A stretch of 64,000 nt of DNA from Lysobacter oculi (GTDB lineage: Bacteria; Pseudomonadota; Gammaproteobacteria; Xanthomonadales; Xanthomonadaceae): contig NZ_CP029556.1 of NCBI RefSeq assembly GCF_003293695.1, forward strand, positions 2,366,001-2,430,000, read 5' to 3'. Below the pieces are notes generated by a model. That model made no database searches and was not told the DNA's origin. It saw nothing but the letters and a program-made list of their open reading frames with translations. Positions 39,999 through 61,271 of the stretch are shown here, in pieces. The stretch's first letter is position 1. Each line of letters begins with the position of its first letter. The position numbers and the translations under genes were made by a program.

Positions 39999-40059
39999 TG
40001 GTGGCTATGGGTGGACTCCATTATGAGTGACGTGCTCTAACCGGCTGAGCTACATAGCC
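39999..40059 (-). pseudogene. tRNA-Met(CAT) remnant, missing about 16 internal bases
   Basis: On the minus strand this reads as a tRNA with acceptor GGCTATG pairing with CATAGCC, D arm GCTC...GAGC, anticodon stem 5' strand CGTCA, loop CTCATAA (anticodon CAT) and an encoded ACCA end. After TG of the anticodon stem it jumps to GAGTCCACC, the last part of the T arm. The rest of the anticodon stem, the variable loop and the 5' strand of the T stem are absent: 61 bases instead of 77. It cannot fold as a tRNA. It sits at the edge of the foreign block, so loss may be tied to integration. Confidence 0.75.
40014..40027. repeat. 14-bp direct repeat, copy 1 (possible att core)
   Basis: The sequence gactccattatgag covers the anticodon loop and the deletion joint of the tRNA-Met remnant. 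An identical copy lies 69 bases to the right. Tyrosine recombinases commonly use tRNA anticodon or T-arm sequences as attachment cores. Confidence 0.55.
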
Positions 40060-40082: not shown

Positions 40083-40096
40083 GACTCCATTATGAG
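40083..40096. repeat. 14-bp direct repeat, copy 2 (possible att core)
   Basis: Second exact copy of gactccattatgag, outside the tRNA and on the island side. The bases flanking it differ from copy 1. Confidence 0.55.
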
Positions 40097-40346: not shown

Positions 40347-43300
40347 ATGGACGGAAGCATACCGAACAAGGACATCTTCTTCGCACTAGATCGGGCGACC
40401 ATTCCGGAGGCGTGGCGGCCCGATCTTAGCCGTACTCTTCTCGAGATCGGGGCGGCCATCAGGCCTCTTGATCGACCTATCCTCGCGCCCCTGATTGCCA
40501 AGCTCGCCCTGCACGCCCAGGAACTCAAGGCGCATGCGTCGATGAACGCGCCGGTCGAGTCTCCGAATCAGATCCACAGGCATCACCCGGGCAGCGCGAC
40601 GTTGTTCAGGTATCTACATGGCCGATCTGCAGGCCTGGAACAACTGACCAGCATCGGCCTTTGTGCCCTCCTGGAGGCAAGCGAACCGGACAGGGGTCCC
40701 CCTATGCGGTTGCTGTCGACCATACGCGGCGCCCTAGACACACCCAATTCACCCTTGTCAGGCGCGCTGGGCGCCGTCTCCTCAATCCCCGAACTTGTCC
40801 GGCTCGTTGAGACCGACGAGGCCATCAGAAAGGCGCTTCCCCCTCACTTCATTCAGCAGTGGGACTCCTGGCTGCGTCCTACCTTGGCCCGGTGGATGCT
40901 GGCGGACCCCGACCGCGTGCGACGGGCGCTGGAGCCTCAAGCCCTTGCCACCCAGCTGGAAGATCCGACGCTGCTTGTCTCGATTGAGACGGGCGACCTT
41001 GAGGGCGGCACCGCCTTGTCGTGCCTTGGCGTTCCCGCGACAGTACCTGAGGCGGCAGTGACGACCACGAGTCGAGCGGGCCGTGCCGCTTCCGACCGTT
41101 TGGAACGAGAAAGTGCTGGCGATCTGATGGCTCCCCCCGAGCTGCGGCTTCCCAGGCCTGTGGATGAACGGCTATGTCATGAGGCAATCCGTCGCGCGGA
41201 AAAGGGGCCTGGTGAGGATCTGGCCGGCCGCGAGCCCTTTGCCGCCCTGACGCTGCTCCTGGCCGGCGCCGTCCGGGAGATCGACCTGCGCGACATCATC
41301 TGGGGTGGAGAGGACGCCGCGCGCCCATACGCGATCGACCCCCACGAGCCGGTGCTCTACAGGCGCCTCAAACGCCCCGCCAATGCCGTCATCCCCCCGA
41401 AAGGCATAGGTGAATGGTTGCAACCGTGCACCGAAGTGATGGCGTGGCCATTGCCCCACTCGTTGCATGCCACGCTACTCGCGCTCGCGGATGGGGAAGC
41501 CGTTAGTGGCCAACCGGTCCTACCTTTGCTCGCCGCATCACCGGCACCGCCCTATCGGATGCGGGACGTGATCGCCCAAGTACTCCCTGAGGCCAACGTG
41601 GGGGCATTGGCACCGCGTCTTGCGCTGGCCTCTGAAATTGCCGCGGTATTGGGCACCGAAATGGCCCAGCTCGCGATGGCGGACACCTTCGGCATGTCGT
41701 CGATCCCTGCCTACTACTCGGCCATGCCTGAAACTGAGCTGGCGACCTACATTGCCGGGATCCAGTCCCGCCGTTTTGGTGAGCTCATCACCGTGATCCC
41801 TGGACGGGACGCCTACATGGGATCACGGCTGGTCCTGACCGATTCCGCCGCCAAGGTGTGGCCCAAGAACCTCCGGGAGGCGATGAAGCAGGCGTCACAC
41901 CAGCCTTGTGCCTGGCTGGCGGAATGGATCGCCCACCGAGATCACCTGGTCGCTGCGCTTTGCGCCATCACGGGACACCGTCCCGAAGATGCATTGGGAC
42001 GGATTTTCTTGTGGGACGTCATCCCTGAGTACGGGTTGATCATCCTGCAGGACAAGCAGGTGGATGCGCTGCGTGCCACCCGCATCGCGGCCACTGGCCG
42101 TCTGTGGTTGTCGGATTTTCGCCGTTACCTCGATCGCCTGATCGAAATCGCGGCACAGCATGGAGGCGAACCCGCAGGCGAGCTGGCCACCGCGATTCTT
42201 CGAGGTGAACAAGCCTTGTTTAGCGTGCCAGCACCAGATGGCACGGTCGCTCCTATGACAGCCACCCGCCTCCGCGAAGGCATGCCTCCCGAACTGCAGT
42301 CCGTCGACAACTTCTTCCGCCATCGGTTGAACCAACACCTACTGGCGATTCGGGTCGATCCGGAACTACGGCATGGCCAGCTTGGCTGGGTGGTGTCCGC
42401 AGCGCACCTCCATGCGGATCTCTCGCCGCGCGCACCGGTCGATCTGGGGCGCGAGCTTGAATCGGCCATTGACGAGCTGCTGGTCAAGGACGGCTGGTAC
42501 CTACCCTCGGCGCGGAAGACACGCTGGACATGGGATGGCATTCCCATGCCGCAACCCAAGGATTGGGACGCCGTATTCTCATCGCACAAGCGCCAGCACG
42601 AGGAAGCACTGAAACGGCTCCGACTGCAGCTCCGCGATCGCTGGAAAGAATGCGAGAGTTCGGTCCTGGCTCGGTTGGCGGAGGCCTTTCAGGAGTTCAG
42701 CCCGCTCCTACGCGTCGATGTCGAGAACAAGCGCCTCGACAAGATCGACGGTATCGAAGGCCCCGTCGAGCTCGGGCCCGATCACCACGCACTGATCTGC
42801 GATCGGGTGCGGCTGGGAGATCTTGATCCTTCCAGTGGACTGGAAGCGGCCACAGCCAGGATCCTGCTTTACCGTCTTGTGCGTCGCGCTCGGGAGCGCG
42901 GGGTCGTCCAAGGCCCTATTCCCGGGCGTCCCTACCTGAGTGTGACAGCCGACCCTTCGCCCTTCGTACCCGGTTTGGGTCTGGCGGTTCGGCACGCGCA
43001 CGCGCTACGACAGGGGCTCGAGGCCAGGGCCAGCATGGGCTACGTGCGGGACCAAGGGCAATTGACCGTCTGGTCCGTCTTGGCGTTTTCGATGTACAGG
43101 CGGTTGTCTTGGGCACAGGCGGCGACGCATGCCGCTCGCACGGCCATGCGTGCCGAGGCGCGTGGACACGTTATTCGCGTCAATGCGCGAGTGGATGGCG
43201 CTGATTTCCACATGGTGTTCAGCGGCGTGCCGGCGACCTTGATCTCAAAAAGAAAACGCCACGCACCCACCTCCCCAGCACCTTCCCTAGAAGCTTTGGA

Positions 43301-44975
43301 AGACTGGGCCATCTCGCACCTCTCCCACGACATTGCTTGGGGTGGACGATCCGTTGCCGCCACCAGAATTGAAGGCGCCCTCATGGCGGCTGCCTGCATC
43401 GAACTGTCCGGGATCGAGCGTCTGCTTCTGCAAGCGGGAACGCAAACAGCAGCCGAAACCCCCGTTCGCAACATCGCCCGCGATGACAACTGGCCTGTCC
43501 ACACGGCCAACAACACCCAAAAGGAAAAGGACGCCAGCGGCACGGAACCGCCCTTGGAGGATCAAGCGGCAGCCAAGCTTTCCAGGCCGAATCAAAGGCA
43601 AAACTATGACCGCTTCATTGGCCTGCTGAACAAGCGCAAGCTCGGACGCCTCAAGGCAACCAAAGCCAGCAAGCCAGAACAGGCGTCCGATGGCACCCAT
43701 GGTTGGCGTCGCCGGCTTCGGGTGGAGCTTGAAAAGCTCCATGGTGAGGTCAGCCAGGATCTCAACCTCGTGCTGTTAATCCGCTATGTACTGGATCACC
43801 TTCGCTACGGCAGTGAGGACGGTAATCGCCTATCTCAGCACTCGTTGCGTCGCGAGGTCTCCCAGATCGGTTGGACGCTGCTCGACCTTCTTGGGGATCG
43901 CGAACTCGTCAGCCTATCTGCGGAGGAGCTTCACCGCCTCTACAGGGAAGTTCTGCTTTCCAAGACCAGCAAGGGCAGGCCGTACGCGTTCGAGGAATTG
44001 CTGCGCCTTCATCGTTACCTGATGCGGGTACATGCACGACCCGTCGTGGACATGACTGAACTGGCTGTCATTGCCGGATCGCGGGCACTGGGCATCCACC
44101 CGGCGTTGTTGACGCTTGCCGAGCGTCAGTCGGTCTTGGAGGAGCTGCAGGCCGACCACGCGCGCGAAGCGCAACGAATTGATGCAGGCCCTGACTTCCT
44201 GCGGATTGCGCAGTTGCGGGTCATCTTGTTCTTGATCCTGGAGGCATCGGGCATTCGACCGGGTTCAGCGTACGGACTTACTTTGGGCGACGTCCTGCTT
44301 TTCGGAGACGCAGGGGATTATGTCCATATCCGCTTGGGGGACTACGCTGAGTCCAAGACCGCCACCTCGCGGGGCTTTGTCTCCCTCACCAGCGAACTCT
44401 GGACGAAGCACCGACATCAAATCCAGCAGTGGATCGATGAGCAGCGAATCCTCGATCCAAGCGGGTGGCGAGATCTGCCACTGTTCGCAATGAAGGCGGG
44501 CGGAAAGACGCGGATACACGACCACCATCTCACCAGTCGCATCAATGCACTGCTGAAGTGGGCAACGGGAGACCGAGACGCCAGCTGCTATTGGCTGCGC
44601 AAGACCCGGATCTCAGAGCGCTACCAGGCCATTGCATCCCTGGATGCGGCCACGGCGCGCGATATCTATGGCGCGATGATGGCGTCTGGGCATGCTGTGA
44701 TCCAAATTCCCGTGGAACGCTACGTCAATGACCCATGCAGTCTTTTGATCGTGAATCTTCGGACCGGTTCTGAAGCGCCACGGTCCGCGCTACTGGCCAT
44801 GTCAGGTCTGGAGTCAGGACCACTGGACGTCGCGTGGACTCGAGCGGGGCGCGATGGGCCGACCAGGATGCGCACGGTGCTCGATCGCATGGATGCGGAA
44901 ATTTCCGCCGTGCCAGCCGAGGTCCGCACGCCACCGCCGGCGCTTCGCCGCTTCAAGCCCTTCCTGCCCTGTTGA
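40347..44975 (+). CDS. Giant protein with two tyrosine-recombinase domains
   Basis: A 1,542-residue protein. Residues about 1280-1465 form a tyrosine-recombinase catalytic domain: Arg1304 (EASGIRPGSAYGLTLGDV), Lys1337 (AESKTATSRG), Arg1418 (YWLRKTR, with Tyr at the usual His position), His1449 (MASGHA) and candidate nucleophile Tyr1459 (PVERYVN). Residues about 515-700 repeat the fold in worn form: Arg545 (ITGHRPEDALG), Arg658 (NFFRHRL) and Trp681 (QLGWV), but no Tyr at the expected place. The first 500 and middle 550 residues match no family I know. The last Cys and the stop codon come from the IS21 end at 44970, so the native C-terminus is probably lost. The ATG is the first in the frame. 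Confidence 0.8.
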   Translation: MDGSIPNKDIFFALDRATIPEAWRPDLSRTLLEIGAAIRPLDRPILAPLIAKLALHAQELKAHASMNAPVESPNQIHRHHPGSATLFRYLHGRSAGLEQLTSIGLCALLEASEPDRGPPMRLLSTIRGALDTPNSPLSGALGAVSSIPELVRLVETDEAIRKALPPHFIQQWDSWLRPTLARWMLADPDRVRRALEPQALATQLEDPTLLVSIETGDLEGGTALSCLGVPATVPEAAVTTTSRAGRAASDRLERESAGDLMAPPELRLPRPVDERLCHEAIRRAEKGPGEDLAGREPFAALTLLLAGAVREIDLRDIIWGGEDAARPYAIDPHEPVLYRRLKRPANAVIPPKGIGEWLQPCTEVMAWPLPHSLHATLLALADGEAVSGQPVLPLLAASPAPPYRMRDVIAQVLPEANVGALAPRLALASEIAAVLGTEMAQLAMADTFGMSSIPAYYSAMPETELATYIAGIQSRRFGELITVIPGRDAYMGSRLVLTDSAAKVWPKNLREAMKQASHQPCAWLAEWIAHRDHLVAALCAITGHRPEDALGRIFLWDVIPEYGLIILQDKQVDALRATRIAATGRLWLSDFRRYLDRLIEIAAQHGGEPAGELATAILRGEQALFSVPAPDGTVAPMTATRLREGMPPELQSVDNFFRHRLNQHLLAIRVDPELRHGQLGWVVSAAHLHADLSPRAPVDLGRELESAIDELLVKDGWYLPSARKTRWTWDGIPMPQPKDWDAVFSSHKRQHEEALKRLRLQLRDRWKECESSVLARLAEAFQEFSPLLRVDVENKRLDKIDGIEGPVELGPDHHALICDRVRLGDLDPSSGLEAATARILLYRLVRRARERGVVQGPIPGRPYLSVTADPSPFVPGLGLAVRHAHALRQGLEARASMGYVRDQGQLTVWSVLAFSMYRRLSWAQAATHAARTAMRAEARGHVIRVNARVDGADFHMVFSGVPATLISKRKRHAPTSPAPSLEALEDWAISHLSHDIAWGGRSVAATRIEGALMAAACIELSGIERLLLQAGTQTAAETPVRNIARDDNWPVHTANNTQKEKDASGTEPPLEDQAAAKLSRPNQRQNYDRFIGLLNKRKLGRLKATKASKPEQASDGTHGWRRRLRVELEKLHGEVSQDLNLVLLIRYVLDHLRYGSEDGNRLSQHSLRREVSQIGWTLLDLLGDRELVSLSAEELHRLYREVLLSKTSKGRPYAFEELLRLHRYLMRVHARPVVDMTELAVIAGSRALGIHPALLTLAERQSVLEELQADHAREAQRIDAGPDFLRIAQLRVILFLILEASGIRPGSAYGLTLGDVLLFGDAGDYVHIRLGDYAESKTATSRGFVSLTSELWTKHRHQIQQWIDEQRILDPSGWRDLPLFAMKAGGKTRIHDHHLTSRINALLKWATGDRDASCYWLRKTRISERYQAIASLDAATARDIYGAMMASGHAVIQIPVERYVNDPCSLLIVNLRTGSEAPRSALLAMSGLESGPLDVAWTRAGRDGPTRMRTVLDRMDAEISAVPAEVRTPPPALRRFKPFLPC

Positions 44976-45043
44976 TTTCCACGCAAAACTGAGCCGGGAT
45001 TTCCATCCAAAATTGAGCCACCCGGTTGCGGGGTGAGCTTAGC

Positions 45044-45817
45044 TCAGGGATGCGGTTGAGTGGTGGCGGACTCCTTGTTGACGGCGGTGGTGTGGTGCCG
45101 GAAGCGGTAGCTGTCGTTGCCGGTCTCGATGATGTGGCAGCGGTGCGTGAGGCGGTCGAGCAAGGCCGTGGTCATCTTGGCGTCGCCGAAGACGTTGGCC
45201 CACTCGGCGAAGCTGAGGTTGGTGGTGATGGCGAGACTGGTGTGTTCGTAGAGCTTGCCGATCAGGTGGAACAACAAGGCGCCACCGGCTTGCGAGAACG
45301 GCAGGTAGCCCAGTTCATCGAGGATGACCAGATCGGCGCCGATCAAGCGGTCGGCCAGCTGGCCCTGTTTGCCGGCGGCCTTCTCCAGTTCCAGTGTGTT
45401 GACCAGCTCAATGGTCGAGAAGAAGCGCACGCGACGCTGCTGGTGCTGCACGGCCTGCACGCCGAGGGCGGTGGCCAGGTGAGTCTTTCCGGTGCCGGGA
45501 CCACCGACGAAGACCAGGTTCTGGCGTGCGTCCATGAAGTGCCCGCCATGCAGTTGCCGTAGCAGCGGTTCATCGACGGCACTTTGGCCGAAGTCGAAGG
45601 TGCTCAGGTCGCGGTAGTGCGGGAAGCGGGCCGCCTTGAGCTGGTACTGGATGGAGCGCACTTCCCGTTCGGCAACCTCGGCCTTGAGCAGGGCGTCCAT
45701 CAGCGGCAAGGCATCGCGGCAGGCCGGGCTGCCTTGCTCGACCAGTTCCTGCAACGCCTGCGACATGCCGTGCAGGCGCAGGTGCTTGAGCGTGGACAAC
45801 AGGCCATCAGGCTGCAT
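45044..45817 (-). CDS. istB: IS21 helper ATPase IstB
   Basis: A 257-residue AAA+ ATPase that helps the IS21 transposase choose a target. P-loop [11 protein letters not shown] and Walker [11 protein letters not shown] are intact; the C-terminal [13 protein letters not shown] is the family sensor region. It overlaps the end of istA by 11 bases. Confidence 0.95.
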
Positions 45818-47333
45818 GGCGTGCCCTCCGCAAGTGGTCGTAGCGGGCCATGTCGGCCACCGGCTCGACCTGCAAGGCCAGCGTCGGTGGCGTACTGACC
45901 GGCGCCGGCGGCGCTTCCCCAAGCAGGCGGCTGAGCACGTTGAGGATGTGCTGCTTGTTGGCCGCGCCACTCTCCAGCGCCAGTTCCACCGCGGTGAGCA
46001 CGGCCTGCTCGTCGTGGCGCAGGACCAGGGCAAGGATCTCGACCATCTCCTTGTCGCCGCCGGGGCGCTGCAGCAACTGCTGTTGCAGGGTGCGGAAGCC
46101 GTCCGGCAGTTCCAGGAAGGGCGCGCCGTTGCGCAACGCACCCGGCTTGCGCTGGGCCACGCTCAGGTAGTGCCGCCAGTCGTAGAGCGTGCGGCCACCG
46201 TCGTGGGAGCGGTGGATGCAGCGGACATGCTCGGCAATCTTCTGGCCTTCGGCCACGAACACCACGCGCGCCGGATACAGGCGCACGCTGACCGTGCGCC
46301 CGGCGAAGCTGGCCGGCACGCTGTAGCGGTTGCGCTCCACGTGGACCAGGCAGGTCGGCGTGACCCGCTTGGTCTGTTCGACGAAGCCGTCGAACGGCAC
46401 CGGCACCGGCATCAATGCCGGCAGTTCGTCCTGCAGGACCTCGGCGATCCTGCGGGGCCGCTGCTCCGGATGGGGCAGTGCCTGCCACAGCGCCTTGCAG
46501 CGCTCCTCCAGCCAGGCGTTGAGTTCGTCCAGGTGCTTGAAGTGCTGCGGCACGGCGGGCCAGACGCGCCGGCGTGCGTCCTGCACGTTCTTCTCGATCT
46601 GTCCCTTCTCCCAGCCGGAGGCCGGGTTGCAGAACTCCGCCTCGAACAGGAAGTGGCTGACCATGGCTGAGAACCTGGCATTGACGCTGCGCCGCTTGCC
46701 GGCATGGACCTTGTCCACCGCCGTCTTCATGTTGTCGTAGATGCCCCGCCGCGGCACGCCACCGAACACGGCAAAGGCGTGGTTGTGGGCATCGAACAGC
46801 ATCTCGTGGGTCTGCTTCCAGTAGGCGCGCAGCAGGAATGCCCGACTGTGGCTGAGCTTGAACTGCGCGACCTGCAGCTTCACCTTCTCGCCGCCAATGC
46901 GCACCCAGTCCTCGCTCCAGTCGAACTGGAACGCCTCGCCCGGCGCGAAGACCAGCGGTACGAAGGCCTTGCGGGGTGCAGTGAGCAGGCGTTCGTGCTC
47001 GGCGCGGTGCCAGTCGCGGGCGAAGGCCGCCACGCGGTTGTAGGAGCCCGGATAGCCCACCGCCACCAGCCGAACGTGCATCTCGCGCACGCTCATCTTC
47101 TGCTTGCGCGGAGCCGACTGGCTGCGCCACAGCATCGCCCGCAGTTGCTCGGCGTACGGGTCTAGCTGGCTCGGGGTCTGACGCGGGGGATACTTCGGCT
47201 CGACCTCGCCGCTGGCGAGGTACTTGGTGATGGTGTTGCGCGAGAGCTTGGTGCGACGGGATATCTCCCGGATCGGCATCTTCTCGCGGAAATGCCAGCG
47301 GCGGATGAGGCTCAGAACGTCCATCTTGATCAC
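45807..47333 (-). CDS. istA: IS21 transposase IstA
   Basis: A 508-residue DDE transposase. The N-terminal helix-turn-helix ([19 protein letters not shown]) is followed by the catalytic core with Asp in FQFDWSEDW, Asp in [10 protein letters not shown] and Glu in [11 protein letters not shown]. Complete and apparently functional. A start 9 bases later (MDVLS) is possible. Confidence 0.95.
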
Positions 47334-47456
47334 TCCTGGTGGCTCCGGTCAGGGCAGACCGGAAGGCTAGGAGGTGGCTCAAGATTGGACGGAAATCCGC
47401 TGGGTTAGTGGCTCAGTTCTGGATGAAACTCAACAGATGTTTCCTTTGGAGCGCTC

Positions 47457-50297
47457 GTGGCGCGGCAGTTATTACCCGCCAGATGCTGGGCTCAGAACTC
47501 ACCACTTGCAATCCAGGCTGCAATGCAATGCAATGCAATGCTGCAACACAATTGCACGGTGCGTCTGTTGGCCATCCCCAAGTTCAAAGTTCAAGGTGTG
47601 GAGCGGTCCGACTCCGCGGTCGCTCGCGAGCTCCACAAGCGCGGCGGCTTCGCTGGACTTTCAGAGCGCTCACTCGCTGTCTATCTGGGTGAACTGCGGC
47701 GTGGGAAGCTGCGATGGTGGCAAACACGACGCGCGCAGTTGCAGGAGGTGGTCGAGCTCACGGGATTTGAACTGGCGGACTTAGGGTTCAGTAACGCATC
47801 GCCCCCGCAGGCATATGCGTTTTCGACCTTCCCGGCATTGAGGCCCATCGACCTGATTCACGAGTCACTGCCCTACGTTTACGAGGACGTTGAACTGCGA
47901 AAGGACTGGGGATTCAAAACAGACCTCTGGCTGGCTCCAGACTCTCGGCACCCCTTAAACCGACCTTCGCCCGGCCTCTACTGGCTGCAGATTCCGCAGG
48001 GCCATGGGTTGGATCTACTTTGGCAGCAGCTAGTGGCACGAGGTCATGCGCAATGCGTCGAACTGCCCGCCTTAGGCGGAACTCTGCCGCAGCAGGCCAG
48101 CGACAAGCTCATGATCTTGCGCGTCGCCAGCCCACTGGAAGTGGACAAAAACAGCCGGGGCAATATCACACCGCCAACGTCACCTGTATTGGTTCTATCG
48201 CGACATCCACCGCCGACCATCACAGAGCCTGACGGCCACCAACCCGGTATCTGGCATCGCGAAATGCTTGGCCTGTCACGCCCCATCGTTTCCGGCGGCA
48301 TGCGGCGCGAGCTTTGTGTTGATTGGCAGGATCGCCTGGTGGCGTGGGCCATCGCTCGCCTTGATGGGAACGAATCGCTTCTCTCGATAACAGACGTCCA
48401 GCGCTGGATTGACAGCCTGCTCCCATACCGCAGCGTCGTATCGACGCCCGATGAGCTGATCGCACTCTGCGGCGTCCTCCATCAAAGCGGCCATCTGCAT
48501 CGCGCGTCTTCCAGAGGGGCCTCGTTGTTCCACGCATGCATGGGCAATCAGGACAACGCTAGGCGTTTGGCGAAGCTGATCAAGCATCGTTATTTGCGCG
48601 GCTCGGCGCCTTGGGATGAGGCACTCTCGCCCGGCCAGTGGGCGCAGCACCTGCAGCCCGGCATGGAAGACGCAGCCAGCATTGCCTCACTGGTCACGTC
48701 CGTTGTCGAGGAAAAATCAGTCGCCCGGCGACGACAGGCTCAGGCGAAGCTGCTGACGTCGACCGCGGAGTCGGTGTTGTCGGAACTCACTGGTAATTTC
48801 GGCCTCATCCGGCACGAGGATGGTTGCTACCACATGCAGCTCCCCTTCCTTGCCAACGGATTGGCTGGAGACGAGGTTTTTGCGTTGGTCAAGGACGGCC
48901 AAGTCGACGCATGGTCACGCCTTTATCTCGACCCGAGCCGACGCGTCGTCGTTGAGATGGCGCTGTGGCGCCTTTCTTTAGGAGAGTTGCTGTATGCCAC
49001 CGAACAGGCGCTCACGTGTGCGAGGCCGAACCTCGTCCAGATGGCAGCTGAAGAGGCGCTGTTCTGGAGCATCGGACTCAAACTCGCCCAGCCCCAAGCC
49101 TCCATTGCGGCGTCAGAGCAAGGCATCCTGCAGACCCTGGCGGGCCGGATAGTCCACCGGATCGCGATAACGTCGCCAAAGCCGGTAACACGCGACCTCC
49201 AAACGCCAGCCGAGGCCTTGGCCTGGGTTGCGGTTTGCTGGCACTGGTCGGTCAACGTGAATTTTCCCCAGACCATACCCCAGCCCCCCGATCTCGCATG
49301 GCTGTTCCCCGGTTGGGCCACTCGAGAGCATCTGGTCGACTATTTGCCGGAACAACTGCCCTACGAGTCATCCCAAGTGCTCGCGGATTCAAGTGAACGG
49401 GCAGGGCGAGGGGCTTGGACGACCTGGTGGCCAGCCGCACGACGTATCGCAGATGATCTGTCAGCGCCCCCGTCAGAACCACCTGATGCGCTGGCGCCAG
49501 CGCTCGTGCTTTCGTGCCTTCGCCATGGATGGCCCATCAATCCATACTGGGTCAGAGTTATGGGTACATCGTACGCACTGACATCGTTCGCGCGCCAGTC
49601 TGTCGCTGAATTTGACCCGCCAGCCAAGGAACGCCTCTTTAAGGCGATGCTGACCGCGATGGATCCGAAGTCTGGCACCCAGTTGGTAACCGGCGACCCG
49701 AAACTCGAAGCTGTACGACAGAAGTGGCGAGCTATGGAGCTTCCAAAGTCGTGGCTGGCTCAAGACTTAATCGTGAGTTTGGATTCACGGTCGGTAGTCA
49801 ACGCTACGGGACCAGGTCTATTTGACTATCTGATGATATGTCTAGACTCGCCGGGCGCAGCCGTCATTCGCGGGTTGGCGCAAAGCATCCCACTTCAACG
49901 GGGCTGGGGCAAAGCCTTCCGGATACTTCTTCCGGCCCTGCGCCAGGAGTCTTGGACAACTGTTTTGGAGTGGATCAATCACGATCCGGGCTGCGATATC
50001 GCCGCGTGGCTATGGAAAGAAGATGCGCTCAAAACCATTGAGCTGCTCAAGCAGACATCGCAACTCCATGGATTTGCAACCTATTCGCTTATGACGGCGA
50101 CCCCTGACCAATATGTACCTGACGTTGCAGAAATCCTCTCGGATACGCAGTGTCCGGCACTGCGCGACGGTCGCGCTGCGTGGGCTCTAGACCGATTGCC
50201 ACATCACGGCTTGAAGCTTGAAAAGCTCATAAATGAGCTGAGTCACGAGGAATGGAATCCTCGCGCAAGTGATCACAGCCAGCCGGCAGAAGCTTGA
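47457..50297 (+). CDS. Large protein of unknown family (946 aa)
   Basis: An ORF of 946 residues just right of the IS21 element. I do not recognise the family and see no Walker A motif, signal peptide, membrane segment or nuclease motif. Residues about 50-105 (VARELHKRGGFAGLSERSLAVYL...LTGFELADLGF) look helix-turn-helix-like; the rest is rich in Leu, Trp and Ala and predicted helical, as in repeat scaffolds. GGAG precedes the GTG at 47457; ATGs at 47523 and 47538 are alternatives, and the N-terminus may be altered by the IS. Codon use is less GC-rich than the core genes. The flanking recombinase genes suggest it belongs to a mobile element. Confidence 0.7.
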   Translation: MARQLLPARCWAQNSPLAIQAAMQCNAMLQHNCTVRLLAIPKFKVQGVERSDSAVARELHKRGGFAGLSERSLAVYLGELRRGKLRWWQTRRAQLQEVVELTGFELADLGFSNASPPQAYAFSTFPALRPIDLIHESLPYVYEDVELRKDWGFKTDLWLAPDSRHPLNRPSPGLYWLQIPQGHGLDLLWQQLVARGHAQCVELPALGGTLPQQASDKLMILRVASPLEVDKNSRGNITPPTSPVLVLSRHPPPTITEPDGHQPGIWHREMLGLSRPIVSGGMRRELCVDWQDRLVAWAIARLDGNESLLSITDVQRWIDSLLPYRSVVSTPDELIALCGVLHQSGHLHRASSRGASLFHACMGNQDNARRLAKLIKHRYLRGSAPWDEALSPGQWAQHLQPGMEDAASIASLVTSVVEEKSVARRRQAQAKLLTSTAESVLSELTGNFGLIRHEDGCYHMQLPFLANGLAGDEVFALVKDGQVDAWSRLYLDPSRRVVVEMALWRLSLGELLYATEQALTCARPNLVQMAAEEALFWSIGLKLAQPQASIAASEQGILQTLAGRIVHRIAITSPKPVTRDLQTPAEALAWVAVCWHWSVNVNFPQTIPQPPDLAWLFPGWATREHLVDYLPEQLPYESSQVLADSSERAGRGAWTTWWPAARRIADDLSAPPSEPPDALAPALVLSCLRHGWPINPYWVRVMGTSYALTSFARQSVAEFDPPAKERLFKAMLTAMDPKSGTQLVTGDPKLEAVRQKWRAMELPKSWLAQDLIVSLDSRSVVNATGPGLFDYLMICLDSPGAAVIRGLAQSIPLQRGWGKAFRILLPALRQESWTTVLEWINHDPGCDIAAWLWKEDALKTIELLKQTSQLHGFATYSLMTATPDQYVPDVAEILSDTQCPALRDGRAAWALDRLPHHGLKLEKLINELSHEEWNPRASDHSQPAEA
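47519..47538 (+). repeat. Pentanucleotide repeat (TGCAA)4
   Basis: Four perfect TGCAA units, then TGC and one more unit, lie in the first 30 codons of the 946-residue gene. Unit changes would shift the frame for upstream starts. Confidence 0.7.
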
Positions 50298-50514: not shown

Positions 50515-50549
50515 CCATGACCACCCCTTTCAACAGGAGGTGGTCATGG
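50515..50549 (+). promoter_or_regulatory. Hairpin covering ribosome site and start of the small integrase
   Basis: A perfect 11-bp inverted repeat (ccatgaccacc at 50515-50525; ggtggtcatgg at 50539-50549) with a 13-base loop. The 3' arm contains the ATG (50546) and half of the AGGAGG site (50535-50540), so folding would block translation. A short reading frame of about 26 codons starts within the 5' arm (ATG 50517) and overlaps the integrase start. Confidence 0.6.
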
Positions 50550-51169
50550 CAATTCTTCACACACTTGAGTCCCACGAGCCCTGGAACAAGGGAAAGCTGA
50601 TCGGCCAGAAGGCGCGACTCAGGCTGAAAGACATCTGGGCGATTCGGATCAGGCTTCAACTTGGCCACAAGGTACGTGATCTTGCACTCTTCAATCTGGC
50701 GATTGATTCCAAGCTCCGCGCTTGCGATCTGGTGAAGCTGCGGGTATCGGATGTTTCCCATAGCGGACAGATGGCATCCCGCGCCATCGTGATGCAGCGA
50801 AAGACGCGCCGACCAGTCCAGTTCGAAATCACCGAGATGAGCAGGGACGCGCTGCAGGCATGGACTCGGACGGCTGGTCTCCGAGGCTCTGACCTTGTCT
50901 TCCCGAGTCGATCGGGCCACTCCCCGCATCTATCCACTCGGCAGTACGCCAGAATCGTCCACCGCTGGGTGCGGGAAATCGGCTTGGATAGTTCCTGCTA
51001 TGGGACTCACACCATGCGACGCACCAAGGCCGCTCTGATCTACCGCCGAACGAAGAACCTTAGAGCGGTGCAACTACTCTTGGGTCACAGCAAGCTTGAG
51101 AGCACCGTGCGGTACTTGGGGATCGAAGTCGACGACGCCCTGGAGATATCGGAACAAACCGAATCCTGA
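50546..51169 (+). CDS. Short tyrosine recombinase
   Basis: A 207-residue site-specific recombinase, near the catalytic domain alone: the full set Arg58, Lys86, His155, Arg158, His181 and nucleophile Tyr190 is present, but the usual N-terminal core-binding domain is nearly missing (about 25 residues before the fold). Similar short integrases often lie in metal-resistance islands. The ATG has a perfect AGGAGG 5 bases upstream. It follows the 946-residue gene by 248 bases and precedes copL. Confidence 0.88.
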   Translation: MAILHTLESHEPWNKGKLIGQKARLRLKDIWAIRIRLQLGHKVRDLALFNLAIDSKLRACDLVKLRVSDVSHSGQMASRAIVMQRKTRRPVQFEITEMSRDALQAWTRTAGLRGSDLVFPSRSGHSPHLSTRQYARIVHRWVREIGLDSSCYGTHTMRRTKAALIYRRTKNLRAVQLLLGHSKLESTVRYLGIEVDDALEISEQTES

Positions 51170-51758: not shown

Positions 51759-51835
51759 GCTTCCCGTGCATGCGAGATATGCCATGCCGGATCTGCCTTG
51801 CATGCAAGGCCGTCACCGAACCATGTGGAGCTGTC

Positions 51836-53737
51836 ATGTCATTCAAATCAACCGGCGTGCCGCAAGGCATCGCCATGCCGTCGCGGCGACGTTTCGTTCA
51901 GGGCCTGGCCGCGGGCGGCGCTGTTGCCGGCTTGGGCCTGTGGCCGCGCGCAAGCTGGGCACAAACGGCGCACGCGATGCCGACCCTGCGCGGGACGGAG
52001 TTCGACCTCAGCATCGGTGAAACCCTGGTCAACTACACCGGCAGCACCCGCCCCGCGGTCACCATCAATGGAACCGTGCCCGGCCCACTGCTGCGCTGGA
52101 AACAGGGCACGACGGTTACCCTGCGCGTGCGCAATGAGCTGCCACGCGGCTCCATCCACGGCCCTGACACCTCGATCCACTGGCACGGCATATTGCTGCC
52201 GGCGAACATGGACGGCGTGCCCGGCATGAGCTTTGACGGCATCCGCCCGGGGGAGAGCTACCTCTATCGGTTCGACGTCAAACAAGCTGGCACTTACTGG
52301 TACCACAGCCATTCCGGGTTCCAGGAACAGGGCGGCATGTACGGGCCGCTGGTGATCGACCCCGATGGACCTGACCCCATCGCCAGCGACCGCGATTACG
52401 TGGTGATGCTGTCCGACTGGACCGATATGAACCCCGCCAAGCTGTTCGCGCGGCTCAAGAAAATGGCCAGCCACGACAACGTCTACCAGCGCACCGTCGG
52501 CGATTTCATGCGCGATGCGGAGCGCAACGGCCTGCCCGCCACCATCGCCGACCGCAAGATGTGGGGGCAGATGCGCATGACCCCGACCGACTTGTCCGAC
52601 GTCAACGGGCAGACCTACACCTACCTGCTCAACGGCACCACCGCGCTGGGCAACTGGACCGGCGTGTTCGCCCCCGGCGACAAGGTGCGGCTGCGCCTGA
52701 TCAACGGCTCGGCGATGACCTACTTCGACGTGCGCATCCCCGGGCTGAAGCTGACCGTGGTGGCCGCCGATGGCCAGCCGGTGCATCCGGTGACGGTGGA
52801 CGAGTTGCGCATCGCGGCGGCGGAAACCTTTGATGTCATCGTGCAGCCAAGTGGGCAGGACGCTTACACCCTCTTCGCCCAGGACAGCGCGCGCACAGGC
52901 TACGTCAGCGGCACCCTGGCGGTGCGCGAAGGCCTGCGCGCGCCGATTCCGCCGCTGGACCCGCGCCCGATCATCAGCATGGCGGACATGGGGCATGGCG
53001 ATATGCACGCGGGCCACGACATGAGTGCGATGGAGAACCCACAGCCCGCTACCGCCTCGGACCCGCATGCGGGTCACGCCATGCCCGGCACCAACCCGTC
53101 CGCACCGATCGGCGCCGATCCGCATGCAGGCCACGACATGTCGGCAAATGCGGGCGCGATGGCTGGCATGGACCATGGCAACGCTGCGATGTCGGACATG
53201 GGAGGCGGAGGGATGCAGGCCCACCCCGCCAGCGAAACCAACAACCCGCTGGTGGACATGCAGACTATGGCACCCACGCCGAAGCTGGATGATCCCGGCA
53301 TCGGCCTGCGCAACAACGGCCGCCGCGTCCTGACCTACGCGGATCTCAGAAGCACGTTCGCCGATCCCGACGGACGGGACCCGGGACGCACGGTTGAGCT
53401 GCACCTGACCGGGCACATGGAGAAGTTCACGTGGTCCTTCGACGGGCTGAAGTTCGCCCAGGCGCAGCCGCTGCGGATGACCTACGGCGAGCGCCTGCGC
53501 ATCGTGCTGGTCAACGACACCATGATGAGCCACCCAATCCACCTGCACGGGATGTGGAGCGACGTGGAGGACGCCGACGGCAACTTCCAGGTGCGCAAGC
53601 ACACAGTGGACATGCCGCCCGGCAGCAAGCGCAGCTACCGCGTGCGCGCCGACGCGCTGGGTCGCTGGGCCTATCACTGCCACCTGTTCTTCCACATGGA
53701 ATCCGGCATGTTCCGGGAAGTGCGGGTGGAGGAATGA
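51836..53737 (+). CDS. copA: Copper-resistance multicopper oxidase CopA
   Basis: A 633-residue periplasmic multicopper oxidase that oxidises Cu(I) to Cu(II). A Tat signal (SRRRFVQGLAAGG) is followed by three cupredoxin domains. Copper ligand motifs: IHWHG, WYHSHSG, HPIHLHG and YHCHLFFHMESGM. Residues about 380-465 form a Met/His-rich insert (MGHGDMHAGHDM and repeats) that binds extra copper. An in-frame ATG at 51770 would add a Cys-rich extension (PCRICLACKAVTEPC); the ATG at 51836 with GGAG upstream fits the Tat signal better. It overlaps copB by 4 bases. Confidence 0.95.
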   Translation: MSFKSTGVPQGIAMPSRRRFVQGLAAGGAVAGLGLWPRASWAQTAHAMPTLRGTEFDLSIGETLVNYTGSTRPAVTINGTVPGPLLRWKQGTTVTLRVRNELPRGSIHGPDTSIHWHGILLPANMDGVPGMSFDGIRPGESYLYRFDVKQAGTYWYHSHSGFQEQGGMYGPLVIDPDGPDPIASDRDYVVMLSDWTDMNPAKLFARLKKMASHDNVYQRTVGDFMRDAERNGLPATIADRKMWGQMRMTPTDLSDVNGQTYTYLLNGTTALGNWTGVFAPGDKVRLRLINGSAMTYFDVRIPGLKLTVVAADGQPVHPVTVDELRIAAAETFDVIVQPSGQDAYTLFAQDSARTGYVSGTLAVREGLRAPIPPLDPRPIISMADMGHGDMHAGHDMSAMENPQPATASDPHAGHAMPGTNPSAPIGADPHAGHDMSANAGAMAGMDHGNAAMSDMGGGGMQAHPASETNNPLVDMQTMAPTPKLDDPGIGLRNNGRRVLTYADLRSTFADPDGRDPGRTVELHLTGHMEKFTWSFDGLKFAQAQPLRMTYGERLRIVLVNDTMMSHPIHLHGMWSDVEDADGNFQVRKHTVDMPPGSKRSYRVRADALGRWAYHCHLFFHMESGMFREVRVEE

Positions 53738-54933
53738 ACGCCGTGCGCCTGATTTTTCCGATTGCCATCGCGCTCGGGCTGTCTGTCCCATTGCCGGCGC
53801 GCGCACAGCACCAAGGACACGTGATGCCGCCGCCTACCCCTGCGGCGCCCGTCGCCAAGAAGAAGCCGCCTGCGAAAGCAGTGGCAAAGCCTGCCGCGAA
53901 ACCCGCGGTCAAGGCACCGGCGAAGACGGCCACCAAAGCGCCCGCGCCCAAGCGGCCCACGACTAAGGCCACCACGCCGCCCAAGCCGCCGACGCGCGAA
54001 ACCGCCTCACCCGCGGCAACACCTGCCGAGGAGGATCACTCCACGATGGATCATTCGCAGATGCAGGGGATGGACCATTCCACGATGGACCACTCGCAGA
54101 TGCAGGGCATGGACCACTCGAAGATGGACCAACCGCAAAATCAGGAGATGGACCATTCCACGATGGACCACTCGCAGATGCAGGGCATGGACCACTCGAC
54201 GATGGATCACACGGGACCGCCGCAGGTCACCCCGGTTCCGTCCGTGACCCAGGCTGATCGCGACGCCGCGTTCCCCGACGTGCATGCCCATCACCTGCAC
54301 GGCACAAGCGTTCAGAGCTATTGGTTGCTTGATCGACTGGAAGTCTCCGATGCGGATAACGGAACTGCGCTGGGATGGGAGGCGATGGCGTGGGTGGGAG
54401 GCGACGTCCAGCGGATCTGGCTGCGTAGCGAGGGCGAAGCGGTAGACGGCCGCATCGAGCACGGGGACATGGAAGTTCTATACGGCCGCAGCGTGCGGCC
54501 GTGGTGGGACGTTCTGGCGGGCGTGCGCCAAGATGTGGGCGATGGGCCATCGCGAACATGGGGAGCGTTCGGCATGCAGGGCCTCTCGCCGTACAAGTTC
54601 GAGGTAGCGGCCACTGCCTATATCGGCCAGGGCGGACGCACGGCGCTGCGAGCCGAGGCCGAATACGACACGTTGTTGACCAATCGCCTGATCCTGCAGT
54701 GGCGGACGGAGGCGAACGCCTATGGCAAGGCAGACCCGCTGGCGGGTATCGGCTCCGGACTGTCGACCGTCGAGTTCGGCGCCCGCCTGCGCTACGAGGT
54801 CACCCGCCAGTTCGCGCCCTACTTCGGCGTAGAACACGACCGCGCCTTCGGCAACACCGCCGACCTGCGCCGCAACGCGGGACATGACGCGGGCGACACC
54901 CGTGTGGTGGCCGGCGTGCGCGTGTGGTTTTGA
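53734..54933 (+). CDS. copB: Copper-resistance outer-membrane protein CopB
   Basis: A 399-residue CopB. Signal peptide ending ARAQ, a Lys/Ala/Pro-rich segment (about 35-95), a Met/His region with seven MDHS units (about 103-160, a tandem repeat in the DNA at about 54043-54210), then a beta-barrel of about 200 residues ending in Phe (VRVWF). It is thought to bind copper at, or move it across, the outer membrane. Starts in an ATGA overlap with copA. Confidence 0.93.
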   Translation: MNAVRLIFPIAIALGLSVPLPARAQHQGHVMPPPTPAAPVAKKKPPAKAVAKPAAKPAVKAPAKTATKAPAPKRPTTKATTPPKPPTRETASPAATPAEEDHSTMDHSQMQGMDHSTMDHSQMQGMDHSKMDQPQNQEMDHSTMDHSQMQGMDHSTMDHTGPPQVTPVPSVTQADRDAAFPDVHAHHLHGTSVQSYWLLDRLEVSDADNGTALGWEAMAWVGGDVQRIWLRSEGEAVDGRIEHGDMEVLYGRSVRPWWDVLAGVRQDVGDGPSRTWGAFGMQGLSPYKFEVAATAYIGQGGRTALRAEAEYDTLLTNRLILQWRTEANAYGKADPLAGIGSGLSTVEFGARLRYEVTRQFAPYFGVEHDRAFGNTADLRRNAGHDAGDTRVVAGVRVWF

Positions 54934-54945
54934 GGAGGAACTGAC

Positions 54946-55728
54946 ATGCCATTCGTTACACGCAAGACCCTCCTCGTCCTCGGCGGGCTATCCGCCGCCG
55001 CGGTGTTCGCCGCGGGCGGGTTCGTCTGGTCGGGGGTCTACAACATCGCGGCCGACGACCTGCACACCCGCCCGGTCTATGCGCTGATGGATACGATGCG
55101 TGAGCGATCGATCGCGGTCCGCGCGAACAAGCTGCATCCGCCACCCAACCTAGATGACCCGGCGCTAATCCGCCAGGGTGCGGGCAACTACAACGCCATG
55201 TGCATGAGCTGCCACTTGGCTCCGGGGATGGCCGAAACCGAGCTGAGCAAGGGCCTGTATCCCGCCCCGCCCAACCTGAGCAAGCAAACCGTGGACGCGG
55301 CCTCGGCGTTCTGGGTGATCAAGCACGGCATCAAGGCCTCCGGCATGCCGGCCTGGGGCCGGAGCATGCAGGACGACTACATCTGGAACATGGTCGCGTT
55401 CCTGCAACAGTTGCCCGGGATGGATGCAGCCCGTTACCGGGCGCTGGTGGCCAGCAGCGGCGGTCATGACCACGGTGGCGGCGAGACCAAGCCTCACGGT
55501 CACGCCGAGGGCGTTTCGGATGATCACGACGCTCCGGAAACGGCGATGGATGTGCATGCCGGCATGGACATGAGCGACGACCAGCCCGCAGCCGCCGAGC
55601 CATCGCCGAACGCAGCGCCGGAGTCGGTCGAACACCGGCATGCGGACGGCACGGTCGAGTCGCATCCGGCGCCACCCACGCAACCGCCACCGGCGAAGGC
55701 CGCCGATGGCCACGATCACCAACACTGA
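54946..55728 (+). CDS. Class I cytochrome c with His/Asp-rich tail
   Basis: A 260-residue protein: N-terminal signal-anchor (about 7-30), a single cytochrome c domain with CMSCH (86-90) and a likely Met axial ligand in KASGMPAWG, then a disordered tail of about 100 residues rich in His, Asp and Pro (HDHGGGETKPHGHAEG; ending DGHDHQH) that should bind metal. It lies 12 bases after copB and is likely in the same operon. It may pass electrons from CopA-linked copper oxidation; this is inference. Confidence 0.85.
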   Translation: MPFVTRKTLLVLGGLSAAAVFAAGGFVWSGVYNIAADDLHTRPVYALMDTMRERSIAVRANKLHPPPNLDDPALIRQGAGNYNAMCMSCHLAPGMAETELSKGLYPAPPNLSKQTVDAASAFWVIKHGIKASGMPAWGRSMQDDYIWNMVAFLQQLPGMDAARYRALVASSGGHDHGGGETKPHGHAEGVSDDHDAPETAMDVHAGMDMSDDQPAAAEPSPNAAPESVEHRHADGTVESHPAPPTQPPPAKAADGHDHQH

Positions 55729-55747
55729 ACCCAACGGAGTCAAACCC

Positions 55748-56275
55748 ATGAAATCGATCGTGACTTTCCTGCTTGCCGCCTTCGCCCTTGGCGGCGTGAT
55801 GGACACCAGTGCCCAGACCAAGCCAGCCGCCTCGGCGCACGCCGCGCATGCACAGCCCATGGCAACCGAACCCGCGCTGGACATTTCCGCCACTGCCAGC
55901 CCGGCCGTGGCGATAGCGGAGCATTTCGGCACAGCACTGGCTGCCGGCGACCTCAAAACGGTGGAAGCCTTGCTGGCCCCTGAGGTGTTGATCCTTGAGA
56001 CCGGCGGGGCGGAGCGCAGCCGCGCCGAATACATGAGCCACCACGCGATCAGCGATGCGAAGTTCCTCAAGGGCAGCCATCACCAGCTCAAGCGACGTAT
56101 CGCGCGCAGCGCGGGCGACCTGGCCTGGATTGGCAGCGAGAGCGAGCTCCACGCCAGCAAGGACGGCAAGCCGGTGACCCTGCTCAGCACCGAGACGATG
56201 GTGCTCAGGAAGACCGGCGCCGACTGGCGCATCGTCCACATCCACTGGTCGTCGCGACCCAAGAAAGCCAAGTGA
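55748..56275 (+). CDS. Exported NTF2-like (SnoaL/DUF4440) protein
   Basis: A 175-residue periplasmic protein. Signal peptide to about TSAQ; an Ala/His-rich linker; then an NTF2-like fold (AIAEHFGTALAAGDLKTVEALLAPEVLIL...WRIVHIHWSS). Similar proteins occur in copper-resistance operons of this family; biochemical role unknown. It starts 19 bases after the cytochrome gene. Confidence 0.75.
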   Translation: MKSIVTFLLAAFALGGVMDTSAQTKPAASAHAAHAQPMATEPALDISATASPAVAIAEHFGTALAAGDLKTVEALLAPEVLILETGGAERSRAEYMSHHAISDAKFLKGSHHQLKRRIARSAGDLAWIGSESELHASKDGKPVTLLSTETMVLRKTGADWRIVHIHWSSRPKKAK

Positions 56276-56285
56276 GGCATAACTG

Positions 56286-56849
56286 ATGAACGTCAAAATC
56301 CTGCTGTTTGCTGCGACCGCGATGTGCTCCCTCACGACCATGACGGCGTGCGCCCGCGCGCCCGAAGCTGCCGGCAGCAATACAGACAACGTCGCCCGCC
56401 CCACCGCCCAAGAACCGCCTGCAATCGCGCGCTCCCCGGCAGCCGCGCCTGCGTTACAACAAGCCGACACGGACGCGCCACGCATGGTCGTCCACAAGAG
56501 CGCGAGTTGCGGGTGTTGCGGCCTGTGGGTGGATCACATGCGCGCCGCCGGGTTCGCGGTGGAAGTGCGCAATACGGACGACCTCAATCCGCTCAAGGAA
56601 CGGGTTGGAGTGCCCTACGGCAAAGGCTCCTGCCACACCGCCGAGGTGAATGGCTATTTCGTCGAGGGCCATGTGCCGGCCGCGGACGTCAAGCGATTGA
56701 TCGCGGAAAAGCCCGATGCCAAGGGCCTGGTGCTACCGGGGATGCCGGCCGGTTCGCCAGGTATGGAGTTACCTGATGGAACGACTGAGACCTACATGGT
56801 CGAACTGGTCAATCAGGACGGGTCGGTCACCGAATTTGCACGCCACTAA
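56286..56849 (+). CDS. DUF411 metal-binding lipoprotein
   Basis: A 187-residue exported protein; LTTMTAC at the end of the signal looks like a lipobox, so it is probably a lipoprotein. The C-terminal DUF411 domain has CGCCGLW (thioredoxin-like CxCC) and GSCHTAEVNGYFVEGHVPA, both typical of copper-linked DUF411 proteins. It lies 10 bases after the NTF2-like gene. Confidence 0.82.
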   Translation: MNVKILLFAATAMCSLTTMTACARAPEAAGSNTDNVARPTAQEPPAIARSPAAAPALQQADTDAPRMVVHKSASCGCCGLWVDHMRAAGFAVEVRNTDDLNPLKERVGVPYGKGSCHTAEVNGYFVEGHVPAADVKRLIAEKPDAKGLVLPGMPAGSPGMELPDGTTETYMVELVNQDGSVTEFARH

Positions 56850-56931
56850 GGGCATATTTTATTGGGGACACCGCGGCGGTGACGTGGGGGCGACCGCCAA
56901 CCCAACCTCTCTCACTGAATGGAGCCAAGCC

Positions 56932-57261
56932 ATGAGCCATCATCTGACCCAAGCCATCCGCGACTGCATCGCGGCCTGCAACGACTGCGCCACCGAATGC
57001 GGCAATTGCTTCAACCACATGGTCGGCAAGGGCAGCACGAACGACTGTCCCGCTTGCTGCATCGAATGCGCTGCGATCTGCCGCCTGTGCGCCGATGCGA
57101 TGGCGCGGAACAGCCCCTTCCATAAGGAATTGTGCGCCCTGTGCGCAAAGATCTGCGAATGGTGCGCGGAACAATGCGCCGCGCACGACATGGAGCATTG
57201 CCAGAAGTGCGCCGAAGCATGTCGCCGCTGCGCGGAAGCATGCCGGGCGATGGCTGCGTAA
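56932..57261 (+). CDS. Four-helix copper-storage protein (Csp/DUF326)
   Basis: A 109-residue protein with 21 cysteines, mostly as C-x2/3-C along four helices, as in the Csp copper-storage proteins, where the Cys-lined core of a helical bundle holds many Cu(I) ions. No signal peptide is seen, so it resembles the cytosolic Csp3 group. His residues at the N-terminus (MSHHL) may add sites. The ATG lies within a longer open frame and has GGAG 10 bases upstream. Confidence 0.85.
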   Translation: MSHHLTQAIRDCIAACNDCATECGNCFNHMVGKGSTNDCPACCIECAAICRLCADAMARNSPFHKELCALCAKICEWCAEQCAAHDMEHCQKCAEACRRCAEACRAMAA

Positions 57262-57267
57262 CAGGTC

Positions 57268-57303
57268 ATGTGCGTCCCTGCCGGAGCGGGCAGGGACGCA
57301 CAT
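57268..57303. terminator. 15-bp perfect hairpin between convergent genes
   Basis: A perfect 15-bp inverted repeat (57268-57282 and 57289-57303) with a 6-base loop lies between the copper-storage and DUF305 genes. There is no T-run, but the stem is very stable. Confidence 0.6.
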
Positions 57304-57316
57304 CGACGTCGCCGCC

Positions 57317-57721
57317 TTACTTGGTATAAGGAGCTAGTTGCTTGATTTCCTCTTGCTGCTCCGCCTTCATCCTGGCAGCCATCGCCTTTAACTCGGCGTT
57401 ACTTCCCGACTTGAGCATCACATCGGCCATGTCGATCGCCATCTGGTGATGGACGGTCATCATCGCCGCGAAATCCTTGTCGACATCTCCGGACATCGGC
57501 ATGGGCGACTTCGAGCCCTCGGTCATGATCCGATGCAATTCCATCGAGCCGGCGCTGTGCCCAGGCATCCCATGATCCGCTCGCATGGCCGCCGGTTGCA
57601 TTGCCGAGCTGTCTGTTTCTTGCGCGGTCTTCGCATCTTCCGCGCAAGCGCCAACGGCGAGGGCCAAACCTGCGCCCAGAAACATCGGCAGCGCAAAAGC
57701 AAAAGGATTCTTCATCTTCAT
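57317..57721 (-). CDS. DUF305 family exported protein
   Basis: A 134-residue protein with a signal peptide (lipobox-like VGAC) and a DUF305 domain (MELHRIMTEGSK; FAAMMTVHHQMAIDMADVML). DUF305 proteins are frequent in copper loci; the Met/His motifs suggest metal binding. The ATG at 57721 has AGGA upstream; an earlier in-frame ATG at 57736 is possible. It is divergent from the MerR gene. Confidence 0.8.
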   Translation of the reverse strand: MKMKNPFAFALPMFLGAGLALAVGACAEDAKTAQETDSSAMQPAAMRADHGMPGHSAGSMELHRIMTEGSKSPMPMSGDVDKDFAAMMTVHHQMAIDMADVMLKSGSNAELKAMAARMKAEQQEEIKQLAPYTK

Positions 57722-57844
57722 CGAGGTGTTCCTCATGGATCCGCTTGCTGGATGCCGAGCGGTACTGCGTCATCGCACGGCGCGCATGCTCGGTCTGTGA
57801 AGCTGTTCCATCTGACCCAATTGAATGTGCCTCGCCTCCAACGC

Positions 57845-57876
57845 TTGACTCTGGACCATGGTGCAGGGTGCAAAGT
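57845..57876 (+). promoter_or_regulatory. MerR-type promoter/operator of the regulator-ATPase operon
   Basis: TTGACT (57845-57850) is followed by a 19-bp spacer, as MerR promoters have. A 22-bp imperfect palindrome (57848-57869, arms actctggacca and tggtgcagggt, 9 of 11 matching) fills it. The -10 region (gcaaagt) is weak, as expected of a metal-dependent promoter. Confidence 0.65.
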
Positions 57877-57908
57877 CCCGCTCACCGGCACATTCCAAAG
57901 GTGACCCA

Positions 57909-61257: not shown

Positions 61258-61271
61258 CGTCTGCACACATA

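Follow-up and report, generated by a model that had tools for sequence, protein, structure and literature searches.

What is encoded by one open reading frame (ORF) of more than 1,500 codons that lies beside a damaged tRNA gene? This question is raised by a stretch of 64,000 nucleotides from the genome of Lysobacter oculi, referred to here as the window. An ORF of 1,542 residues runs from 40347 to 44975 on its forward strand; the coordinates, the open frame and the ATG start given in an earlier note on this DNA were confirmed. That note described a fusion of two tyrosine recombinase domains and proposed that the protein is the integrase of an inserted element. From the comparisons below, the ORF is probably a C-terminally truncated representative of a protein family without a name in the libraries searched, in which one chain acts as a tyrosine recombinase and inserts islands into tRNA genes at the anticodon loop. 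Its relatives are mostly found beside tRNA genes that are broken at the anticodon by islands, which makes an overlooked kind of integrase the most likely identity.

The ORF is homologous over nearly its full length to proteins of 1,723–1,751 residues, with 37–40% identity. The full-length close relatives, called window-type proteins in what follows, have 1,711–1,893 residues, and the closest of them extend about 170–190 residues beyond the end of the window protein. At this point an IS21-family element is present on the reverse strand (44970–47435, with istA at 45807–47333 and istB at 45044–46141). The final codon of the ORF, TGT, and its stop, TGA, are the first bases of this element, which starts at 44970, so that the window protein is devoid of the C-terminal tail. 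A second, inverted copy with 99.96% identity is located at G000:C1:2446008-2448474, G000 being the window genome, and no obvious target duplication flanks the element in the window. Searches of the island and of the window genome did not recover the missing tail, a result that is weak because the tail is poorly conserved. As a consequence of the truncation, the window's own copy of the giant gene may be inactive.

The protein escapes the usual searches. Only chance-level matches were obtained for it in Pfam, NCBIfam and PADLOC, and matches to ribosomal protein S3 (E 0.13 and 0.25) and to ZorG (E 0.016) were dismissed as such. Searches of PHROGs (E up to 10), of the PDB by single sequence, and of phage and plasmid records were negative. 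Six one-chain proteins that were scanned gave nothing above the Pfam or NCBIfam cut-offs, and relaxing the threshold to E 1 to 10 brought up no match to PF00589; in three whole genomes, PF00589 (up to E 10) misses the giants. In searches of the open-access literature, no title or abstract among those listed describes the family. None of the libraries searched contains the architecture; the chemistry and the type of element are of known kinds.

Relatives are scattered. In the family to which the window genome belongs, 7 of 198 genomes match at E ≤ 0.001 and 12 of 198 at E ≤ 10, the best match covering residues 102–1538 with 37% identity; for the class this is 2 of 369 genomes and, in a profile search, for the phylum 8 of 398 (own genome included each time). 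A pattern scan of named genomes yielded 10 loci, i.e., in Dyella solisilvae, a Dokdonella MAG, four Arenimonas, two Pseudoxanthomonas, a Lysobacteraceae MAG and a MAG labelled Alphaproteobacteria. An earlier pattern scan of genome contigs and one of viral contigs gave no relative. As L017/L027, L018/L034 and L019/L033 are the same contigs, each pair was counted once among the 15 window-type loci, and the scoring of catalytic columns holds only L027, L033 and L034 of them; L118 and L120 were not scored. The proteins of L031 and L032 are near-identical and both are in the catalytic-column set. L023 is cut by a contig end and is absent from the alignments.

To assign domains, a family alignment of 13 sequences was split into A (residues 255–482, positions 41109–41792), B (486–735, 41802–42551), a middle region (775–1060, 42669–43526) and C (1090–1482, 43614–44792), all on the forward strand. 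For hhalign, 23 recombinases taken from three genomes were aligned as the reference; of these, L107–L109 are PF00589 matches below the cut-off. By this profile comparison, B and C can firmly be classified as tyrosine recombinase domains. Domain C is matched with probability 97 (E 1.7e-11, 195 columns; 95 and 94 with half-sets of the reference) and domain B with probability 96 (E 8e-9, 154 columns; 93 and 89 with half-sets). Among the six PDB sequences matched by B, the top three are the XerC-like 4a8e (E 3.8e-4), XerD (0.044) and XerH (0.12); for C, the Int protein (6en0/6emy, E 0.05 and 0.18) takes the second and third place of five, behind a ribosomal protein (0.013). Domain A reaches probability 85 (E 6.5e-6, 170 columns), which falls to 11 and 51 with half-sets, and its PDB comparison gives no recombinase but six unrelated chains at E 0.023–0.091. 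It is probably a tyrosine recombinase domain as well, making three in the chain. In these alignments, R424, R658 and R1418 occupy the column of the second catalytic Arg, whose nucleophile counterpart is the column of Y457 and Y1459. As a control, 480 column shuffles all scored below 20 except two outliers (131 over 5 columns and 133 over 36); 160 further shuffles had maxima of 131 and 133, and the reversed middle region scored 24. The outliers of 131–133 are taken for numerical artefacts. A fourth recombinase domain at residues 775–1060 was rejected, with an hhalign probability of 0.5 and one designed protein but no recombinase from the PDB; this middle region has no assigned fold. Both domains named in the earlier note were thus recovered by hhalign, with a Tyr in the C-terminal one only, and the probable third, with R424 and Y457, had been overlooked. 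Of the more than 1,000 residues that it could not match to anything, about 228 constitute domain A.

The catalytic residues are distributed unequally over the three domains. The set R-K-H-R-H/W-Y is present in C, with a Tyr at the first His position, and in neither A nor B alone. In C, the positions previously given for Arg1304, Lys1337, Arg1418, His1449 and Tyr1459, and for Tyr1415 at the His of the HxxR box, are correct; most distant relatives have His at 1415. R1304, K1337 and R1418 are each found in 23/23 sequences and Y1459 in 22/22, His1449 being present in 20 of 22 (Gln in L020 and L028). Domain B has Arg545, Arg658, His659 and Trp681 and no Tyr, in agreement with what had been noted of Arg545, Arg658 and Trp681. 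The qualification "worn" holds for the missing Tyr of window-type proteins and not for the rest of the site: including Lys570, which had been overlooked, R545, K570, R658 and a His or Trp at 681 are conserved in all 23 covered sequences, so B is not simply decaying. None of the 14 window-type proteins has a Tyr at +7 to +12 from position 681, and 3 of 10 distant ones do (at +11 in L111 and L112, at +8 in L115), when 24 rows are counted and five secondary stretches of L024, L025, L110 (two) and L111 are excluded; in four Arenimonas proteins, a Tyr stands at +14. The Tyr in these few distant proteins may indicate that B was formerly self-sufficient. In domain A, Y457 is invariant (16/16) and R424 nearly so (16/17, with Glu in L020, which also has Glu at 1415), and an Arg at 310 is found in 5 of 16 sequences only. 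Judged by these residues, window-type B is a retained R-K-R-H/W pocket without nucleophile and A a nucleophile with little of the pocket.

Distant relatives exist in one-gene and two-gene forms. In five loci from other proteobacterial genomes (L111, L112, L114, L116 and L117), A-B and C are encoded by adjacent overlapping ORFs, of 794 and 1,104 codons in L112. L110 and L113 are single chains, and L115 has B and C joined in a frame that begins within B. Domain A is recognized (E < 0.05) in L112, L113 and L117 and not in the other five of L110–L117. PF00589 misses the giants yet finds the C proteins of four two-gene relatives in 4/4 cases (E 1.5e-4 to 4.9e-12), 3/4 being over the cut-off. The C protein of L112 has matches in 223 plasmid records, 218 of which are from Acinetobacter, and none in phage records; on one Acinetobacter plasmid, the two genes are annotated as 'hypothetical protein' and 'site-specific integrase' and are preceded by a 149-aa hypothetical protein. 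On plasmid pTol5 (L118, 2142–8917), genes for 149, 837 and 1,271 residues stand in a row, the last annotated as site-specific integrase. In trees from which L031 was left out, one change explains the fused and split forms for domain C (support 76/84); the B tree suggests two, though one is also possible. The one-gene and two-gene forms offer a natural series for studying how elements with several recombinases evolve and why defective partners persist.

The association with tRNA genes is found in most close relatives. Of the 15 window-type loci, 9 have on the opposite strand, at most 1 kb upstream of the giant gene, the 3′ half of a tRNA gene that is split at or close to the anticodon, with intact T-loop and anticodon; the same holds for 2 of the 6 distant loci examined. 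By chance, about 0.28 matches would be expected in the 20.5 kb examined (11 background matches in 801,283 strand-bases). Remnants with internal deletions, judged by eye, were seen in five more (the window, L017, L023, L026 and L029; that of L023 resembles Arg-TCG, also by eye), and L018 has none. Whether the neighbour is always tRNA-Met, as the earlier note asked, can be answered in the negative: the nine loci include Met-CAT (2), Arg-CCG (5, of which two are the near-identical Pseudoxanthomonas genes) and Arg-ACG (2), and two of the six distant loci examined have a split Val-GAC or Arg-CCG gene, the other four being without a tRNA remnant within 1 kb. By eye, deletions in the displaced 3′ half of the tRNA often fall in the interval between anticodon and T-arm and not at the acceptor end (the window, L017, L019, L021, L023, L026, L028 and L029), a pattern that perhaps reflects ascertainment bias, as fragments deleted at the far end are harder to see. 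A very divergent giant (L020, 8108–13243), deviating at 424, 1415 and 1449, adjoins an Arg-CCG remnant in a congener (G444) whose genome also has an empty tRNA-Met site.

Both island ends were examined in three genomes only. In Dyella, the tRNA-Met 3′ half is present at both ends of an island of 67,247 bp, as a direct repeat of 46 bp; one end holds the restored tRNA and the host promoter side, and the giant gene begins 248 bp inside the other. The island of MAG G949 has cores at 63,399 and 102,127 and the giant gene start at 101,880, i.e., 247 bp by subtraction. With 251 bp in the window, the distance from core to start codon is 247–251 bp in three genomes. In the window genome, in G949 and on a Dokdonella contig, a 31-nt linker stands between the host 5′ half and a second, complete tRNA-Met, core plus linker being 40 nt in all three; in Dokdonella the giant gene is on a separate contig, and its link to this left end is only inferred. 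Other PF00589 recombinases (up to E 10) number one in the G949 island and one in the Dyella island, at a distance of 18 kb or more from both ends (G949 81,926, a 503-aa frame; Dyella 787,851, a 455-aa frame). Direct-repeat ends, restored and displaced tRNA parts, an empty site and an integrase gene beside the attachment site are all features of tRNA-targeted islands, and all were found. The island neighbourhoods of L077, L080 and L025 contain, by eye, apparent type I restriction-modification and other defence genes.

In the window itself, the tRNA gene is damaged, as had been noted. ARAGORN finds no tRNA, and Infernal reports a remnant at 40002–40059 on the reverse strand with 31 bits. The full tRNA-Met remnant (39999–40059, reverse strand) combines the 5′ half with the terminal portion of the 3′ half and lacks 16 nt relative to a congener. 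It contains the outer copy (40014–40027, reverse strand) of a 14-bp repeat, whose inner copy, CTCATAATGGAGTC, is located at 40083–40096 on the reverse strand, its first base, 40096, lying 251 bp away from the ATG; the window genome has no copy besides these two, even when 1 mismatch is allowed. The inner core is taken as the true end of the element because the 251-bp spacing matches that of the other islands. The 69 bp between inner and outer core, comprising linker and tRNA 5′ half, would then be the left end of an earlier, similar element, implying tandem insertion. A distance of 120 kb separates the tRNA parts in the window genome, where the 5′ half (2526322–2526362) is next to rppH and the remnant next to queD. 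Five congener stretches were examined for the empty site. G444 has rppH, an intact tRNA-Met and queD adjacent to each other, and rppH likewise adjoins tRNA-Met in G547; in G412, G531 and G514, neither rppH nor the tRNA pattern is present within the stretch. By ARAGORN, tRNA-Met adjoins queD in 7 of 11 congener loci. The split tRNAs of relatives, the Dyella direct repeats and this empty site make the proposed integrase role of the giant protein likely.

Alternative explanations were weighed. One is that the giant protein is mere cargo or an accessory, and that the island in the window was moved by a P4-type integrase of 417 residues encoded at the island's other end, where it adjoins the complete tRNA-Met (G000:C1:2526214-2526290). 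At 2448599, 15 bp that match the tRNA 3′ end may be the other terminus of that P4-type element, which would then be a nested insertion of 78 kb. However, a giant gene adjoins a split tRNA in most window-type relatives, the spacing from core to start codon is nearly constant over three genomes, and tblastn (E 0.01) found no match to the P4-type integrase in the island stretches of G949 and Dyella; this explanation is improbable. A chance long frame or a chimera resulting from insertion-sequence activity, of which the earlier note had named the chimera as an outcome that would overturn its reading, could be suspected from the IS21 element that abuts the ORF and gives its stop. It retains virtually no credibility, as the alignments with relatives extend over almost all of the window protein (36.9% identity over 1,475 residues, 40% over 1,567) with the same order of parts over the full length: the element cut the 3′ end and did not create the fusion.

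When the giant is taken as the integrase, it would bind the element core and the DNA of the tRNA anticodon arm, and domain C would cleave and religate by the usual tyrosine mechanism. A and B would occupy the remaining positions in the synapse, one chain thus doing the job that several proteins share in GInts, SEs and RITs. The far end of the island would restore the tRNA, with a 3′ half as in Dyella or with a complete second tRNA-Met behind the 31-nt linker. In Flp, the tyrosine is supplied from a neighbour. By analogy, A and B could form a composite active site, with Tyr457 of A inserted in the R545-K570-R658-H/W681 pocket of B and with C as a second, complete site, a reading that we consider rather unlikely. 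If true, the two active sites that serve one attachment site would reside in a single chain, and the synapse would need two chains instead of four, as a covalently linked analogue of the XerC/XerD pair. The chances are about even, if anything slightly lower, that only C is catalytic, that A and B are DNA-binding or architectural domains of recombinase fold, and that four C domains from four chains build an ordinary synapse. The scarcity of Arg310 in A and the consistent lack of a Tyr at +7 to +12 in window-type B point in this direction, and the Tyr at +8 or +11 in three distant B domains fits a stepwise loss of activity. There are also precedents: GinC is essential without the first Arg (PMC5385486), and Tfp is without the RHRY motif (PMC10214605). 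On the other hand, it is hard to explain without a role in chemistry why the Arg, Lys, Arg and His/Trp of B and Tyr457 of A are invariant in the sequences covered. A pocket without nucleophile next to a nucleophile without most of its pocket allows cleavage in cis and in trans to be tested in one protein.

The proposed integrase role of the giant protein invites comparison with known systems. GmtY is the recombinase of a gammaproteobacterial mobile element, the Gamma-Mobile-Trio. Its model NF040693 (NCBIfam, 441 positions) matches no giant gene in the six genomes searched, so that this candidate was rejected; the giants in G000, G790 and G672 are unmatched, and the C protein of the two-gene form in G935 reaches only E 0.17. 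Classical tRNA-targeting islands usually encode one ordinary integrase of about 400 residues, whereas the giant exceeds 1,500 residues and is missed by integrase models. The likeness to these islands is in the split tRNA that is restored by the island and the fragment displaced to the other end (Islander, PMC4383910). GInts, described by Bardaji et al. 2017 (PMC5385486), have ginABCD, with three separate recombinase genes and GinD, and imperfect repeats of 10–17 nt. They resemble the giant's islands in that three components of tyrosine recombinase type, including a defective one, stand at a single end of a site-specific island with variable cargo; they differ in that the giant holds its domains in a single chain from one gene and targets tRNA genes. 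Strand-biased circularizing elements (SE) have four genes, intA-tfp-intB-srap, and a 6-bp footprint; in them (PMC10214605), two catalytic recombinases are combined with a recombinase-fold protein without catalytic motif, as in the giant, but the described gene layout sets SEs apart. The word tRNA is absent from the GInt and SE texts (PMC5385486, PMC10214605). RIT elements (recombinase in trio) also bring three tyrosine recombinases together, yet as three genes, of 315–410 aa in the archetype and all with the catalytic Tyr (PMC8138268, PMC10214605), while the giant is one gene and window-type B has no Tyr in 14 of 14 proteins.

Since the one-chain giants escape the common integrase models, their islands are probably under-counted. 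Further features lie beyond the IS21 element of the window. This element is followed by an ORF of 946 residues (47457–50297, start codon uncertain), for which comparison with Pfam, NCBIfam and PADLOC gave nothing at E ≤ 1, and by a tyrosine recombinase of 209 residues (50540–51169; PF00589, E 4.7e-20), to which frames at G000:C1:2489789-2490241 (with one stop) and G949:C11:2285 are similar. An apparent copper-resistance module, of which we take the genes to encode a multicopper oxidase and a P-type ATPase, is present by eye in two opposite copies in the 120-kb region, at 51770–61260 in the window and at G000:C1:2480585-2487679.
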